DNA from: a virus
Virus record (IMG/VR): IMGVR_UViG_3300032304_000151
Coordinates: 1-29,804 of that record
Direction: 5' to 3' (one strand)
DNA length: 29,804 bases
The notes below the pieces were generated by a model. It worked only from the letters and a program-made list of their open reading frames with translations. It ran no database searches and had not been told where the DNA came from. Positions 2,381-27,201 of this stretch are shown here, one piece after another. The position numbers and the translations under genes are program-made. Numbering within the stretch: position 1 is the stretch's first letter; every line of letters begins with the position of its first letter.

Positions 2381-2967
2381 TCGTAGCGAGCGTATTGCGG
2401 TCAGGCGGTGATTTCAAGCCTGAACACGTTTATGCCTTGCAAAAGATGTGCGCCAAGTATCTGCCACCGCATGAGTTTGTGTGTCTGTCGGACGTTGAGT
2501 TGGAGTGCAAAACCATCCCTTTGATGCATGACTGGGTTGGTTGGTGGGCAAAGATGGAATTGTTCAGGCTACCAAGTGCGCTGTATTTTGATCTCGACAC
2601 GGTGCTAACTGATGACTGTACGGCAATGATTGAAGCGGCAAAGCAGCACGATTTTGTAATTATGCGTGACGTTTATCGGGGTCAGTACAACCCAAAAGCT
2701 ATGCAGAGCAGCATGATGTTTTGGTCTAAACCTGTTGATTTGTACGATAAGTTCGCTGCATTACAGATGTATACGGCGGGTGGCGATCAAAGCTACATTG
2801 AACACTTTATGCGGGACAAAGTGACGTACTGGCAGGACATTTGTGACGGGATTGTGAGCTTTAAGGCTGATGTGCTGCCCAAAGGGTTAGACGATGCCAA
2901 GGTTGTGATATTTCACGGCAAACCTCGTCCGTGGGAACAAACAAGGATACCGTATGAAATTGGTTGA
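2377..2967 (+). CDS. Glycosyltransferase-like protein (GT8-like, DxD motif)
   Basis: 196 residues. The N-terminal VASVLRSGGDF, the acidic DxD-type motif in LYFDLDTVLTDD (Asp72-Leu-Asp74), a GGDQ at 135-138 and a late IFHGKPRPWE (His180) follow the layout of retaining, metal-dependent glycosyltransferases of GT8 type. The DxD binds the divalent metal and nucleotide sugar, and the late His-Gly-Lys contacts the diphosphate. The protein is shorter than typical cellular GT8 enzymes, as is common in phages. It overlaps the FkbM methyltransferase gene by 14 nt, so the two probably act together on a glycan. The acceptor (capsid protein, fibre or host polysaccharide) is unknown. Confidence 0.75.
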   Translation: MIVASVLRSGGDFKPEHVYALQKMCAKYLPPHEFVCLSDVELECKTIPLMHDWVGWWAKMELFRLPSALYFDLDTVLTDDCTAMIEAAKQHDFVIMRDVYRGQYNPKAMQSSMMFWSKPVDLYDKFAALQMYTAGGDQSYIEHFMRDKVTYWQDICDGIVSFKADVLPKGLDDAKVVIFHGKPRPWEQTRIPYEIG

Positions 2968-3565
2968 AGGCTGGCAAGTTCCCGATATTGACGAGTGCTG
3001 CATAAACGCACTCTTGGTCGAGCTACCAGACTTGAATGTCAGCTATACCCACATGAACAAGTTCCGCACAGTTATTCAAGCCGGTGGCAATATCGGTGTT
3101 TATCCCGCAACGATGGCAGGGCAATTTGAGCGTGTTATTACAGTCGAGCCTGACCTGGTCAACTATCAGGCGTTGTTGCTAAACGTTGCAGGCCACGCCA
3201 ACATTGAGCATCATTGGGCTGCATTTGGTGACAAAATTGGCACAGCATCAGTCGATTACCCATACCCTGAAAACATTGGGGCGCACCAATTAAAGGCTGG
3301 CAATGACGTTCGGGTGCTAACCATTGATTCTTTTTGCGTAGATAACTGCGACTTTATCCAGTTAGACATTGAAGGTTACGAGCATCTAGCTTTGCTTGGG
3401 GCAGAAAGAACCATCAAAAAGACACACCCAGTTATCACGCTGGAGCTTAAAGGCTTGGGCAGTCGGTACGGGTACAGCGACGAGGACACAATCAACTTAC
3501 TCCAAGAATGGGGTTACGAGATTGTCGGGCGGGTAAACCGTGACGTAATTTTTGCGAGATACTAA
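2954..3565 (+). CDS. FkbM-family SAM-dependent methyltransferase
   Basis: 203 residues with a class I methyltransferase fold. Motif I is TVIQAGGNIGVYP (about 39-51), where Ala-Gly-Gly replaces the more usual Asp-x-Gly. The acidic ribose-binding residue is in VITVEPD (about 61-67), and the FkbM signature FIQLDIEGYEHLAL spans about 134-147. FkbM enzymes O-methylate sugars or polyketide hydroxyls. The 14-nt overlap with the upstream glycosyltransferase suggests sequential sugar addition and methylation. The substrate cannot be read from sequence. Start ATG at 2954 is chosen because motif I follows at normal distance. Confidence 0.88.
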   Translation: MKLVEGWQVPDIDECCINALLVELPDLNVSYTHMNKFRTVIQAGGNIGVYPATMAGQFERVITVEPDLVNYQALLLNVAGHANIEHHWAAFGDKIGTASVDYPYPENIGAHQLKAGNDVRVLTIDSFCVDNCDFIQLDIEGYEHLALLGAERTIKKTHPVITLELKGLGSRYGYSDEDTINLLQEWGYEIVGRVNRDVIFARY

Positions 3566-7532: not shown

Positions 7533-7780
7533 ATGGCATTTGCCAATAGCTCGATCAGCGACATCATTGCGACTAACATTCAAAGCCGCACGGGTGAACT
7601 TGCTGACAACGTAACAAATAACAACGCTTTACTGCGCCGTTTGAAAGAACGTGGCAACGTAAAGACGTTTTCTGGCGGTAACGTGATTTTGCAAGAGATC
7701 ATGTACAACGACGCTGCAACCGACAACACCAATAGCTATTCAGGCTATGAAGTTTTGAACGTTTCGCAAAACAGTCCCAT
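7533..7780 (+). CDS. Major capsid protein, exon 1 (residues 1-82 plus two bases of codon 83)
   Basis: Starts at ATG 7533 after a CGGAG site. The frame codes for MAFANSSISDIIATNIQSR and continues through NSYSGYEVLNVSQNSP, then reaches a stop at 7800-7802 inside the intron, so the unspliced product is only 89 residues. Joining 7780 to 8041 makes codon 83 ATT (Ile) and continues into exon 2 as SPI-SAAQFSITQYAAA, which reads as one capsid family. The complete spliced gene is 1002 nt (333 residues). Capsid identity rests on the scaffold upstream, length, and the C-terminal part (DRNFVPIGG...QDAIVKLIG). A truncated pseudogene is the alternative, but the intact intron core argues against it. Confidence 0.9.
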
Positions 7781-8040
7781 TGACGAATTAGTGGCTTTGT
7801 AGAGAAATCTGCATCGAAAAACTTTGTGAATTCGGTGAAACTCTGACCATTAAGTTGAAGACAATACCGAGCCAAGCCCAGAGATGGGAAGGTGTAACGA
7901 CTAGGGTGTGACTACCCGTAGAGCCAAGTGGCTCGAAGTGCAAAGAACCCTACGGGGTTGTGAGATAGTCTGCTCTGCATAGAAATATGCAGCAGTCCGA
8001 AAGGGCGGCAAGGGATTAACGAAACCTTGTGAACATTTGG
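7781..8040 (+). ncRNA. Group I self-splicing intron in the major capsid gene
   Basis: 260 nt with no ORF. P1: exon CCAU (7777-7780) pairs with the guide GUGG (7791-7794), with the splice-site U7780-G7791 wobble, extended by UGA/UUA around a CGAA loop. P10: exon 2 UAGU with 7787-7790. P2: 7799-7803/7808-7812, loop GAAA. P4: 7831-7836/7866-7871. P5: 7841-7847/7854-7860 with one C-A mismatch. P6: CCCA/UGGG with GAGA loop (7877-7888). P7: 7899-7903/7966-7970. P8 within 7915-7958, carrying a nested GAGCC/GGCUC hairpin. P9-type hairpins: 7975-7992 (GAAA), 7995-8006 (GAAA) and 8009-8029. Terminal G is 8040. P3 is weakly defined (ACUU 7821-7824 with GGGU 7904-7907). Core strings GAGCCAAGCC and GGUGUAACGACUA match bacterial group I introns as I know them. 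Confidence 0.93.
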
Positions 8041-8794
8041 TAGTGCGGCACAGTTCAGTATCACCCAGTACGCTGCGGCAATTTCGATCAGCGGTCTGGA
8101 GATGATTCAGAACAGCGGTAAAGAAGCAATCATTGACTTGCTAGATGGTCGTATGAGCGTGGCTGAAGCACAATTGGCTAACCGTATTTCGGGTGACATT
8201 TACCTAGACGGTACTGGTAACTCAGGCAAGAACATCACAGGCCTCGGCGCTGCTGTTCCTGACGCACCAAGCACCGGCACTTACGGCGGCATCAATCGTG
8301 CATCGTTCTCGTTTTGGCGTTCGGCTAAGTTCTCAGGCGTGACTGATGGCGGTTCGGCGACTTCAGCATCAAACATCCAATCGTACATGGATGCTCTTGC
8401 TGTTCAACTGATTCGTGGAACAGACAAACCTGATCTGATCGTTTGCGACAACAACTATTACAAGCTGTATTTGCAATCGTTGCAGTCAATTCAACGTATC
8501 TCCGACGGCGGTAATTCGGCAGTTGGCGCAGGCTTTGCATCGTTGAAATACTACGGCGCTGGTATGGCATCAGACGTAATCTTGGACGGTGGTATCGGTA
8601 ACGATGCAACTGCCAATCATATGTGGTTCTTGAACACCAAGTACATGATGTTCCGTCCACACGCTGATCGTAATTTCGTGCCAATCGGCGGCGAACGTCA
8701 AGCTGTTAACCAAGACGCTATCGTCAAGCTCATCGGTTTTGCCGGCAACCTCACATCTTCAGGCCCGCAATTCTGCGGCGTTCTGATCGCCTAA
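8041..8794 (+). CDS. Major capsid protein, exon 2 (end of codon 83 to residue 333)
   Basis: In the correct frame the exon reads T|AGT GCG GCA CAG, giving SAAQFSITQY, then SGLEMIQNSGKEAIIDLLDGR and on to a C-terminus with HADRNFVPIGGERQAVNQDAIVKLIG and GPQFCGVLIA. An upstream in-frame TGA at 8030-8032 shows that this half cannot be read continuously from upstream without splicing. The first ATG inside it (8102) lacks a good ribosome site and would drop a conserved-looking stretch, so it is not taken as a start. Helical NSGKEAIIDLL and the beta-rich remainder fit an HK97-type coat protein, though the fold is inferred. Confidence 0.9.
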
Positions 8795-9339: not shown

Positions 9340-10107
9340 ATGATTGAAGCTGTACTTGATGTTGTAGGGAACACAGAGCCTGACGTTTTGTTGGGCAATG
9401 TGCAGCGATCCGTAAAAAGGTCGCTGCCTTGGTTTGATTTTGACGAGTCATCCCAAGGCAGCGTCTGTCTTGTTGGTGGTGGGCCAAGTCTGGTTGACAC
9501 GATTGACCAGTTGCGGTTACGCCACCAAAACGGCGCTAAAGTTTGGGCAATGAATGGCTCTTACGATTATTTGGTTAAGCAAGGCATTGTGCCTGACGCA
9601 ATGGTCATGCTTGACGCTCGACCAGAGAACGTAAGATTTGTTCAAAATCCATACGCAGCAACAACGTTTTATATTGCTAGTCAATGTGACGATTCGGTGT
9701 TTGAGGCTTTAAAGCAAGATCATGTTGTATTGGTTCACGCCAATACGCCTGGCGTTTATGAGTTGCTTGAGCATGAAAAGGCTAGACCAGTTCACCTAAT
9801 GGGTGGGTTTACAACTGTTGGCATTTTGTCGTTGATATTGGCTAAGTTGCAAGGGTTTCAGCGCATCTTTATGTTTGGCATGGATTCAAGCTACCGAAAT
9901 GGCGAACATCATGCCTATAAACAAGAAAGTAATGACGCAGAACGTGTAATTGACGCTATGATTAACGATGTGACGTACAAGTGTGCGCCGTGGATGGCAC
10001 AACAAGTAACAGATTTTCAGAATGTCGTAGCAGGCTTTGACGATGTTACGATTGAAGTATGTGGCGATGGACTTTTGCACGAAATGGCAAAAGCGATGAG
10101 TAACTAA
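9340..10107 (+). CDS. MAF/DUF115-like protein (6-hydroxymethylpterin kinase MptE-like or glycosyltransferase-like fold)
   Basis: 255 residues starting at the first base after the previous stop. The central domain has SVCLVGGGPSLVDTIDQL (about 46-63), a nucleotide-binding-like glycine loop, then VWAMNGSYDYLVKQGIVPDAMVMLDARPE and a late IFMFGMDSSYRNGEHHAY. This order is typical of the DUF115/MAF_flag10 family, whose cellular members are linked to flagellin glycosylation (Maf, pseudaminic acid transfer) or to MptE-type pyrophosphokinases. In a phage between decoration and head-tail genes it more likely serves glycan modification than pterin synthesis. This is the third sugar-related gene in the virion module. 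Confidence 0.75.
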   Translation: MIEAVLDVVGNTEPDVLLGNVQRSVKRSLPWFDFDESSQGSVCLVGGGPSLVDTIDQLRLRHQNGAKVWAMNGSYDYLVKQGIVPDAMVMLDARPENVRFVQNPYAATTFYIASQCDDSVFEALKQDHVVLVHANTPGVYELLEHEKARPVHLMGGFTTVGILSLILAKLQGFQRIFMFGMDSSYRNGEHHAYKQESNDAERVIDAMINDVTYKCAPWMAQQVTDFQNVVAGFDDVTIEVCGDGLLHEMAKAMSN

Positions 10108-25003: not shown

Positions 25004-25219
25004 CTAATGCAACTCAGGCCATATTTGTTGCCAGTTGGGGATTTCTTTTCTTGACCATTTGCCATCTGATTTTTTTTCAAGCTCGGCAGCCAGCAACACT
25101 AATTTATCGCTAGGCAAACCATTGTTGCGCCATTGACTTACGGCGGGTGGACTGACACGACATAGCTTGGCTACAGCAAACGTGCCACCTAATGTTTGGA
25201 TGATTTCTGTTGTATTCAT
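25004..25219 (-). CDS. Cro/YdaS-like helix-turn-helix repressor
   Basis: 71 residues. TEIIQTLGGTFAVAKLCRVSPPAVSQW (about 4-30) is a helix-turn-helix with the typical VSPPAVSQWRNNGLP recognition segment of YdaS/Cro-like phage regulators, followed by LVLLAAELEKKSDGKW and a C-terminal PNWQQIWPELH that recurs in this family. It is divergent from the recombination operon, the arrangement of a lambdoid switch. One copy of the 13-bp motif (25221-25233) starts two bases beyond its start codon and others lie in early promoters, so it is the prime candidate to bind that motif. No CI-like partner with a protease domain is visible here. Confidence 0.8.
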   Translation of the reverse strand: MNTTEIIQTLGGTFAVAKLCRVSPPAVSQWRNNGLPSDKLVLLAAELEKKSDGKWSRKEIPNWQQIWPELH

Positions 25220-25220
25220 G

Positions 25221-25233
25221 TTAGATAGCTTAA
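25221..25233 (+). promoter_or_regulatory. Operator-like 13-bp motif at the Cro-like gene start
   Basis: TTAGATAGCTTAA, an imperfect palindrome (TTAGAT against GCTTAA), located just upstream of the start codon of the leftward Cro-like gene. It differs by a single base from the copies at 25267 (TTAGATACCTTAA) and 24465-24453 (TTAGATGGCTTAA). Nearby AACAGAT (25232-25238) is inverted relative to ATCTGTT (25261-25267). Binding here could block expression or translation start of the regulator gene (autoregulation); inferred. Confidence 0.5.
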
Positions 25234-25253
25234 CAGATGAGGTTTTGTATGTG

Positions 25254-25282
25254 TTGACTTATCTGTTTAGATACCTTAATAT
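25254..25282 (+). promoter_or_regulatory. Rightward early promoter (recombination operon) with operator
   Basis: -35 TTGACT (25254-25259), 17-bp spacer, -10 TAATAT (25277-25282); start expected near 25289. Within the spacer is the palindrome TATCT-gttt-AGATA (25260-25273), and the motif TTAGATACCTTAA at 25267-25279 runs into the -10. Bound repressor would cover the polymerase site. It drives the ERF, SSB, 47-residue and nuclease genes. The leader holds a CTGAC/GTCAG hairpin. Confidence 0.7.
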
Positions 25283-25290
25283 CTATCTTA

Positions 25291-25306
25291 CTGACATACC
25301 CGTCAG
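25291..25306 (+). promoter_or_regulatory. Short inverted repeat in the leader of the recombination operon
   Basis: CTGAC-ataccc-GTCAG, a perfect 5-bp inverted repeat just after the expected transcription start and about 20 nt before the ERF start codon. It may be a 5' stabilising hairpin or a protein-binding site. Short length makes chance possible. Confidence 0.35.
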
Positions 25307-25326
25307 GACAACATATAGGTGCATAA

Positions 25327-25893
25327 ATGAAAGAATTAGCAAAAGCATTAGTCACGGCTCAGGCAGCAATGTCACACGCAGCCAAAGATAGTAAAAATCC
25401 CCACTTTAAATCTGCATACTCAAGTCTGGCATCAGTCATTGACGCTGTGCGGCCTGCTCTGTCCGCTAACGGTTTAGCCTTTGTGCAGATGTTGCATACG
25501 GCAGACGGTGGTGTAGCCGTTGAAACAGTTCTTATCCATGAATCAGGTGAGCAGCTGTCTTGTGGCACGTTGTTTATCCCTGCAAGCAAACAAGATGCCC
25601 AAGGCTACGGTTCAGCAATTTCGTATGCAAAACGCTACAGTTTGCAAAGTGCGCTTGGTATTGCGTCAGAAGATGATGACGGTAATGCAGCAACCAAAGC
25701 ACCGCCAGTCAAAGTCATTGAGAAACCAAAAGGCATTGAGTTGGACAACACTATTGCACAAATGGCATCAGCGGTTAGTTACGAAAGTTTAAAAGACATA
25801 TTTAGGGCAGCATGGACTATTTGCTTAAAAGAGCAACAGATTCCGTTGAAGGCTGCATACGATCAATTTAAAGCAAACTGGGAACAACAATAA
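25327..25893 (+). CDS. erf: ERF-family single-strand annealing protein
   Basis: 188 residues. ERF signatures are present: KNPHFKSAYSSLASVIDAVRP (in parts, about 23-43), NGLAFVQML, and QGYGSAISYAKRYSLQSALGI followed by an acidic EDDDGNAA (about 92-122). ERF proteins anneal complementary strands and help circularise or recombine phage DNA. It sits first in the operon with SSB and a nuclease, the usual recombination set. Start: AGGTGCATAAATG, one of the shared initiation sequences. The stop overlaps the SSB start by one base. Confidence 0.93.
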   Translation: MKELAKALVTAQAAMSHAAKDSKNPHFKSAYSSLASVIDAVRPALSANGLAFVQMLHTADGGVAVETVLIHESGEQLSCGTLFIPASKQDAQGYGSAISYAKRYSLQSALGIASEDDDGNAATKAPPVKVIEKPKGIELDNTIAQMASAVSYESLKDIFRAAWTICLKEQQIPLKAAYDQFKANWEQQ

Positions 25894-26327
25894 TGGCAAA
25901 CGATCTTAACCGCTGCGAGTTTATTGGGCGCTTGGGCAAAGACCCTGAAGTACGTTACACCGCTGACTCTAATGCAATCTGTAATTTCTCAATTGCGGTG
26001 GGTTACAAGACCGCAACCAAGGAAACGACAGAATGGGTCAGAATAACGACGTTTGGCAAGTTGGCAGGAATATGTGCCGACTACTTAAAGAAAGGCTCAC
26101 AGGTCTTTGTAGCGGGTCGTATGACTACTCGCAAGTGGCAAAACAAAGATGGCGTGGATCAATACACAACCGAGGTGGTTGCCGATCAAATGCAGATGCT
26201 TGGTGGTCGGTCTGCGGAAGCCAATGAGCCAGCTGCTGTGCCTATACCTAAACTTGATGCATACAGGTCAATCAAAGAAGGCGTAGTTGTGCCTTTTGAA
26301 GATCTGCAAGACGATCCACCGTTCTGA
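25893..26327 (+). CDS. ssb: Single-stranded DNA-binding protein
   Basis: 144 residues. OB-fold pattern of bacterial-type SSB: LNRCEFIGRLGKDPEVRYTADSNAICNFSIAV (in parts, 5-36), WVRITTFGKLA, YLKKGSQVFVAGRMTTRKW and YTTEVVADQMQMLGG. The C-terminal tail ends DDPPF, the acidic tip that binds partner proteins. It protects ssDNA made by the nuclease and cooperates with ERF in annealing. One-base overlap with ERF, and its TGA overlaps the next ATG. Confidence 0.95.
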   Translation: MANDLNRCEFIGRLGKDPEVRYTADSNAICNFSIAVGYKTATKETTEWVRITTFGKLAGICADYLKKGSQVFVAGRMTTRKWQNKDGVDQYTTEVVADQMQMLGGRSAEANEPAAVPIPKLDAYRSIKEGVVVPFEDLQDDPPF

Positions 26328-26470
26328 TGACGCAATCCGAAGAAGCAATATTGATTTCTTGGAGATTGCAGCAATGGTACTCAGGCATGGTTCTAGACGC
26401 TAGAGCCATGCAAGACTTACAGGATGCAATCGAAATGCTTAAACAACTCGCTAAAAAGGTACAAAAATGA
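26327..26470 (+). CDS. 47-residue protein between SSB and nuclease
   Basis: ATG 26327 overlaps the SSB stop, and its TGA (26468-26470) overlaps the nuclease ATG. The sequence MTQSEEAILISWRLQQWYSG then MVLDARAMQDLQDAIEMLKQ is helical and amphipathic with a basic end KKVQK. The double overlap in a recombination operon supports it as real. It may bind SSB or the nuclease; no family recognised. Confidence 0.6.
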   Translation: MTQSEEAILISWRLQQWYSGMVLDARAMQDLQDAIEMLKQLAKKVQK

Positions 26471-27201
26471 TTATTAAATCAGCAGACTCAGAAAGTGGTC
26501 ATTGGTACGCAGCTGACGGTTCACCAGCGTACAAAATTATTGGCAAGAACGGCAAAGAACGCAACACAACTGTTCGGGACGCAAGGGAACTTGGGTTAGT
26601 ACCGTCGGTAACTACGGTTTTGGGATTGGTTGCCAAGCCTGGCTTATCGAACTGGCTGCAACAACAAGTGTTACTGGCTGCGCTGACATTGCCACGCATT
26701 GCTGGCGAAACAGAAGAAAACTGGCTAGAACGGGTTATGTCAGACAGCAAGAGTACAGGTCGTGACGCTATGGATCGTGGCACTCATATGCATGGGGTGC
26801 TTGAGCGTTTTTACCGTGGCGAACAAGACGATTACCCTGTTTATGTTAACCAGGTTGATGCGTCGATCAGAATCCACTTTGGGCATGACCAAACTTGGGA
26901 GGCAGAACGCTCGTTTGCATACGAGGGGTTTGGCGGCAAAGTCGATTTGATTGCTGAAAACATTGTGATCGACTTTAAGAGTAAAGATAAACTTGACAAG
27001 GTTGTGCCGTATCACGAACAACTGATGCAACTGGCGGCGTACCGTGTCGGCCTTGGCAAGCCTACAGCCAGATGCGCCAACGTGTTTTTTACTGCCGAGG
27101 GTGATGTAAAACTGATCGAACATTCAGAGGATGATTTAGCCTCTGCGTGGGATTGCTTTCAGTATTTATTAGCGTTCTATAAACGTAAAAACAACCTATA
27201 A
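26467..27201 (+). CDS. PD-(D/E)XK nuclease (RecB-like exonuclease)
   Basis: 244 residues. The nuclease core is clear: RGTHMHGVLERF (H-containing motif at about 104-115), GGKVDLIAENIVIDFKSK with Asp160 and the Asp169-Phe-Lys171 catalytic pair, and HEQLMQLAAYR carrying the Q-x3-Y motif (Gln188, Tyr192) of RecB/Cas4-like enzymes. It probably resects DNA ends, producing substrate for ERF and SSB. The start, AGGTACAAAAATG, shares the initiation sequence seen in other early genes. It is the last gene of the operon; a structured 27208-27255 stretch follows. Confidence 0.88.
   Translation: MIIKSADSESGHWYAADGSPAYKIIGKNGKERNTTVRDARELGLVPSVTTVLGLVAKPGLSNWLQQQVLLAALTLPRIAGETEENWLERVMSDSKSTGRDAMDRGTHMHGVLERFYRGEQDDYPVYVNQVDASIRIHFGHDQTWEAERSFAYEGFGGKVDLIAENIVIDFKSKDKLDKVVPYHEQLMQLAAYRVGLGKPTARCANVFFTAEGDVKLIEHSEDDLASAWDCFQYLLAFYKRKNNL

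Follow-up and report, generated by a model that had tools for sequence, protein, structure and literature searches.

Nucleotides 7781-8040 of the DNA analysed here are very probably an active, self-splicing intron of group IA, located in the major capsid gene of an uncultured tailed phage, and the intron appears to be a recent arrival by gene conversion. This DNA, hereafter called the window, is a 29,804-base IMG/VR virus record in which the terminase, portal, and capsid genes follow one another as is usual in tailed phages. We infer splicing from conservation of the intron and its exons. The features are listed in Table 1.

The split capsid gene

The capsid frame opens at 7533 and is closed after 89 codons by the TAG at 7800-7802, and the second frame extends as far as 8794. 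The first, unspliced frame matches the PHROG 9953 major head protein with an E-value of 1.4e-16. Excision of 7781-8040 (260 nt) yields a single 333-codon frame, in which codon 83 is split as AT and T (phase 2), the protein reads ...NSPI-SAAQFSITQY..., and the spliced junction is AACAGTCCCAT followed directly by TAGTGCGGCACAG. The spliced frame thus bears out the original prediction, which had placed the break at 7800 and the restored ATT codon at position 83.

The spliced protein is a full-length homologue of PHROG 9953 major capsid proteins. When IMG/VR is searched with it, the best 80 loci are uninterrupted and 88-100% identical, nearly all of these loci over residues 1-333. In these 80 intronless relatives, the 3' exon is the uninterrupted continuation of the 5' exon. 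Named phages are distant, the capsid proteins of Stenotrophomonas phage BUCT555 and Myxococcus phage Mx8 being 53% and 50% identical, respectively. A search of genome contigs returns eight loci, in metagenome-assembled bins from unrelated phyla.

Two metabolic-looking genes lie within the structural block of the window. One encodes an FkbM-type methyltransferase (2954-3565) between terminase and portal, and the other a probable MptE-like protein (9340-10107) 3' of the capsid gene. At 25004-26327 and 26467-27201, genes for ERF, SSB, and a PD-(D/E)XK nuclease stand beside a small opposite-strand Cro-like ORF and make up a phage recombination module.

Identity and boundaries of the intron

The covariance model RF00028 (Intron_gpI) matches positions 7769-7992 on the plus strand with 67.2 bits (E 3e-15 over the window; full model, 1-253), above its curated cut-off of 50 bits. 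This was one of the checks put forward with the original prediction, which had claimed an ORF-less group I intron at 7781-8040 in a capsid gene. The claim is right to the base, given the covariance match, the restored frame, and the intronless homologues. The prediction had named as evidence against itself the lack of a covariance match, or capsid homologues that end near residue 89 or start at 8102; the match is present, and the homologues do neither.

Inserts of 258-261 nt with the same boundaries are present in at least 16 other contigs, which come from many different IMG metagenome ids. Together with the empty sites of the 80 intronless relatives, this recurrence goes far past anything that chance would give. 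All carrier inserts at this site, hereafter site 83, are too short for an endonuclease gene. The source of the window is a metagenomic contig, and an assembly or sequencing artefact (a chimeric contig or indels) might in principle produce such an insert. However, the identical boundaries, together with natural variation and compensatory changes among the contigs, reduce the probability of an artefact to practically nil; as judged from independent assemblies, this reading is in practice already refuted.

Secondary structure

We aligned 14 site-83 introns, comprising 13 distinct sequences, over 71 base pairs. These pairs, in P1-P10 with P6a, P7.1, P7.2, P9.1, and P9.2, are formed in 100% of cells in the 13 distinct sequences. 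Double-sided changes occur at seven pairs (24 cells), located in P2, P5, P7.1, P8, and P9.2; in P5, for example, U-A is replaced by C-G in 6 of the 13 distinct sequences. None of 500 shuffles attains the observed number of pairs or of cells with double change, or the observed covariation score, and pairing falls to only 37-41% when the partners are slid by one to three columns. P3, P4, P7, and P9 are invariant and are therefore uninformative on their own for covariation. Minimum-free-energy folding, with P1 and P10 included, gives a wrong core for the intron (z -2.1), as is usual for a pseudoknotted ribozyme, and is not used as evidence.

P7.1 and P7.2 sit between the 5' strand of P7 and the 3' strand of P3. 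This arrangement is a hallmark of subgroup IA, and we therefore assign the intron to that subgroup. The helices named in the original prediction (P1, P10, P2, and those of P4-P9 type) are correct, and the aligned introns add P3, P7.1, P7.2, P9.1, and P9.2. The wobble pair at the 5' splice site, U7780-G7791, is invariant across all aligned sequences; this pair and the terminal G8040 had likewise been proposed correctly.

Table 1 Features of the capsid gene and its intron in the window.
Feature	Position	Strand	Basis or remark
5' exon, major capsid (major head) gene, codons 1-83	7533-7780	+	Ends after the first two bases of codon 83
Co-conversion tract in exons, codons ~61-120, intron excluded	7713-8152	+	DNA identity profile against L001 and carriers
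P1: 5' exon CCAU (7777-7780) with internal guide GUGG (7791-7794)	7777-7794	+	Invariant in 14 site-83 introns
Group I (IA-type) intron, no open frame, 260 nt, phase 2	7781-8040	+	RF00028, shared boundaries, covariation
P10: 7787-7790 with 3' exon 8041-8044, 4 bp	7787-8044	+	Always paired in 14 introns; two pairs vary one-sidedly
P2 hairpin, GAAA loop, 6 bp	7798-7813	+	One compensatory pair
In-frame UAG within P2, 5' of P3	7800-7802	+	Aligned carriers compared
P3: 7822-7828 with 7939-7945	7822-7945	+	Invariant
P4 (7832-7836/7866-7870) and P5 (7842-7844/7859-7861)	7832-7870	+	
P6 (7871-7873/7891-7893) and P6a (7877-7880/7885-7888)	7871-7893	+	Intron alignment
P7, guanosine-binding helix: GACUA (7899-7903) with UAGUC (7966-7970)	7899-7970	+	Invariant; RF00028 alignment
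P7.1 (7904-7907/7914-7917) and P7.2 (7921-7925/7930-7934)	7904-7934	+	P7.1, two compensatory pairs
P8, UACG loop (GAAA or GCAA in some relatives)	7946-7959	+	Two compensatory pairs
P9 (7975-7981/7986-7992), P9.1 (7995-7998/8003-8006), and P9.2 (8009-8013/8025-8029)	7975-8029	+	P9.2, one compensatory pair
Omega-G, terminal G of the intron, 3' splice site	8040-8040	+	Conserved in all site-83 introns
3' exon, major capsid gene, rest of codon 83 through stop	8041-8794	+	PHROG 9953, E 9.8e-72

The same alignment bears on whether the intron still splices. A splicing-dead remnant would leave either a pseudogene or two polypeptides, one of 89 aa and one of 230 aa from the ATG at 8102, and the two frames of the unspliced gene, closing at 7800 and beginning at 8102, are arranged as this would require. 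However, the product from 8102 lacks residues 84-103, which are present in the uninterrupted homologues; the window protein is matched at 88-100% identity by the exons of the first 11 carrier contigs; and the helices are fully paired, with compensatory changes, in all 13 distinct sequences. We consider a dead remnant very improbable.

Proposed splicing pathway and the stop codon ahead of the core

In the proposed pathway, an exogenous guanosine bound at P7 would attack after U7780 of the U-G pair in P1, and U7780 would next attack after G8040, with the 3' exon aligned by P10. The ligated mRNA would encode the 333-aa capsid protein. The in-frame UAG, which precedes P3, would bar ribosomes from the catalytic core. 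It is known that a stop placed in frame shortly after the start of a group I intron can protect it from entering ribosomes (PMC3073962).

In each of the 14 aligned introns, translation continuing from exon 1 would run into a stop ahead of P3, and since an in-frame stop within about 13 codons is ~46% likely per sequence, only the turnover of the stop is suggestive. In most of the aligned introns the stop is a UGA at intron nucleotide 35. One carrier, L092, has both this UGA and a UAG at nucleotide 20, and only the window and two further carriers, L084 and L087, have the UAG at nucleotide 20 without the UGA. The UAG arose by a C-to-U change in P2, which converts a C-G pair to U-G. In the clade of the window, UAG has taken the place of an older UGA, an exchange that hints at selection.

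Exon identity around the intron

The spliced capsid protein of the window is identical to that of an intronless relative, L001. At the DNA level, compared in 30-nt steps, the two are 67-97% identical over codons 61-120 and 83-100% identical elsewhere. The distal exons are 97.3% identical, and the flanks (60 nt on each side of the site) 80.0%. Against the carrier L084 the values are 93.8% for the distal exons and 100% for the flanks. In general, the flanks of the window are 96-100% identical to those of carriers L084, L085, and L087, and the distal exons of these carriers, at 93-95%, are below L001. Relative to a regression over 152 intronless relatives, the flanks of the three carriers are 3.2-4.0 residual standard deviations high. 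The distant carriers L220, L281, and L294 have no clear excess of flank similarity to the window, so that co-conversion is clear for close carriers only.

The tract is visible in the alignments themselves; from it, we infer a conversion event by which the intron would recently have been gained. The donor would be the capsid gene of another phage, and flanking exon DNA would have come in with the intron. Scattered presence together with co-conversion of flanking exons is the pattern by which a mobile intron is recognized, and both are found here. On an unrooted tree of 165 capsid proteins, the 13 site-83 carriers are scattered and need 11 changes, compared with 12.7 for shuffled labels, in a parsimony count that cannot separate gain from loss. 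The six site-83 introns in a tree of intron cores form one clade (SH-aLRT 99). The introns at this site therefore probably go back to a single origin, although their distribution is scattered.

An old, vertically inherited, non-mobile intron would show the same scatter if it were repeatedly lost, and the parsimony count is blind to the difference. In accordance with such a history, no endonuclease is linked to the intron, and the tract could be mimicked if L001-L004 had undergone reverse conversion by an intronless donor. However, loss alone would not exchange ~180 nt of flanking exon, and in the pair with identical proteins most of the DNA differences are close to the site, in sequence that the window shares with the carriers. 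We therefore regard vertical inheritance as unlikely and favor recent gain by gene conversion.

Other inserts in the capsid gene and the route of movement

Inserts are present in relatives of the capsid gene near codons 27, 53, 83, 146, and 309, and in distant relatives elsewhere; several genes hold two. The 80 nearest relatives were sampled by means of a capsid segment in which no insert is known; four of them carry an insert, in three cases at site 83. Group I introns are confirmed by Rfam at site 83, near codon 146 in L133, and in the distant relatives L224, L302, and L326.

The codon-27 insert is ~660-780 nt long (L131:3464-4122 and L195:4488-5150, and also in L114, L134, L158, L193, L194, L196, and L197). 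In L131 and L195 it contains a GIY-YIG ORF (Pfam, 26.7 and 25.8 bits, respectively), and in L131 it has a sub-threshold Rfam group I match of 27.9 bits. Inserts of ~215-245 nt are located near codon 309 (L093:1258-1502, and in L128, L142, L148, L166, L170, L172, L187, L390, L089, and L294) and near codon 53 (L099:9830-10062, and in L133 and L204). The inserts of L093, L099, and L133, as read, have P7-like GACTA/TAGTC strands, but an Rfam search of the codon-53 insert of L099 and the codon-309 insert of L093 gives no match even at an E-value of 1. We therefore call these inserts group I-like only; possibly they belong to a group I subtype outside the coverage of RF00028. L089 and L294 each hold inserts at both site 83 and site 309, and a relative of the codon-309 insert is located at a P22 coat protein gene in MW202674. 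The distant capsid relatives L269 (3992-5957), L326 (6538-7462), and L224 have one or two inserts each, and in one insert of L269 the opposite strand contains a NUMOD3/HNH_5 ORF.

The 260-nt intron of the window contains no homing endonuclease ORF. Its spread is probably due to a trans-acting nuclease or to ordinary phage recombination during co-infection, perhaps with help from the ERF annealing protein and the single-strand binding protein that the phage itself encodes at 25.3-26.3 kb, near the PD-(D/E)XK nuclease. If movement needs a homing endonuclease encoded elsewhere, as in the collaborative or trans homing of T3/T7-like phages and cyanophages, candidate nucleases exist in the GIY-YIG and HNH genes of inserts at other sites of this capsid gene family. 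Trans-acting endonucleases that move ORF-less introns have been reviewed (PMC3984707, PMC10448857). However, searches for HNH, HNH_3, and GIY-YIG over 33 records, mostly fragments, find no gene common to carriers. Of 17 carrier records, the window counted as one of the 17, two have HNH_3, as do 3 of 14 intronless records. In the window record, which may be incomplete, Pfam scans of the ORFs and domain searches find no HNH, HNH_3, or GIY-YIG. The negatives of the genome-wide GIY-YIG search are soft, because it missed two intron-borne GIY-YIG ORFs that were found by the per-protein scan. On balance, dependence on trans homing is a serious candidate with a little less than an even chance.

Host genes of the intron lineage

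To survey introns with a core like that of the window, we searched IMG/VR for the exact pattern AACGACTA-N40-70-GAGATAGTCTG. Among the matches listed are 119 introns, selected by their likeness to the window intron. The host class with the most members is that of the major head genes, with 44 of the 119 listed introns (within L210-L326): 18 in PHROG 283, 14 in PHROG 1328, and 12 in PHROG 9953. Nine of the listed introns with this core are in psbA. In the core tree, the introns of the three capsid families are in part near each other, where they make up 33 of the 41 rows of one weakly supported group, whereas those inserted at different positions in the PHROG 9953 gene are found in other parts of the tree.

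A second survey used a different IA core, AAGACTA...AGATATAGTC, with 120 introns among the matches listed. The hosts include helicases, NrdD, tape measure proteins, and endonucleases; the 25 best-represented families are all of other kinds than major head proteins. The capsid enrichment is therefore not to be extended to all phage introns. On the sequences surveyed, this intron lineage has a main home in capsid genes, which does not hold for phage introns at large.

The original prediction had described capsid introns as rare compared with those in polymerase, reductase, and thymidylate synthase genes. With capsid introns already published (PMC3706429) and major head genes as the largest class in the 119-intron sample, this description is unsupported here and right at most in part. 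A broader picture is conceivable, and we put it forward tentatively: a small IA lineage with capsid genes as its main home may have entered at least three major head families that have no mutual BLAST match, as well as several positions of one of them, and may spread among co-infecting phages by gene conversion, partly without an endonuclease of its own.

Relation to known phage introns

T4 introns of the td/nrdB type have the P7.1/P7.2 features of subgroup IA and an early in-frame stop, and are located in genes of nucleotide metabolism; the td intron carries I-TevI. The window intron is alike in the IA features and the early stop, and differs in the endonuclease and the host gene. Subgroup IA2 accounts for over half of the group I introns of viruses (PMC11835236), and according to reviews the usual hosts of phage introns are polymerases, reductases, and terminases (PMC3984707).

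The mycobacteriophage LittleE (Cluster J) has a group I-like intron in its major capsid gene, for which splicing was proven by RT-PCR and N-terminal sequencing (PMC3706429). The two cases are alike in the host gene and in having intronless relatives. The LittleE intron is 819 bp long, its opposite strand has a putative LAGLIDADG ORF, and its spliced cDNA and protein have been shown, whereas the window intron is 260 nt long with no ORF, is accompanied by many independent carriers and a conversion tract, and is known from sequence alone. In the lactococcal phage Tuc2009, a capsid subunit gene is interrupted by a group I intron, as cited in PMC3706429; by description, both are capsid-gene introns, in different phages and hosts.

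Several introns in one phage gene have precedents in Twort, with three introns in a gene (Landthaler and Shub 1999, as cited in PMC6669764), and in the tape-measure gene of ICP1, with three introns between which HEGs turn over (PMC10448857). Those are other genes, whereas here the inserts are in the capsid genes of one phage clade, with each site filled in a minority of the phages. The closest named DNA to the window intron comes from Aeromonas phage phiA009 (OM033134), whose gene for the large terminase subunit holds an intron with 75.7% identity over 54% of the window intron; Vibrio phage sequences (OX241423 etc.) are ~80% identical over 75% of it. The host gene thus differs in phiA009 and is unannotated in the Vibrio phages.

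Group I introns are already known, even in capsid genes. As far as our searches of the open-access literature reach, what appears new is the intron-plus/intron-minus pair with identical protein, the conversion tract, the exchange of stops, and the frequency of capsid hosts.

The original prediction reasoned soundly that virions would not be made unless the intron splices. Few late genes are expressed as heavily as the capsid gene, and a ribozyme in it must therefore splice with great efficiency. Major capsid genes of environmental phages that hold such inserts will come out split, or be missed altogether, in capsid marker surveys and gene calling. Intron-plus and intron-minus phages with an identical capsid protein offer a clean natural pair in which the cost of splicing could be measured, and the same pair is suited to testing the spread of an intron that has no endonuclease.
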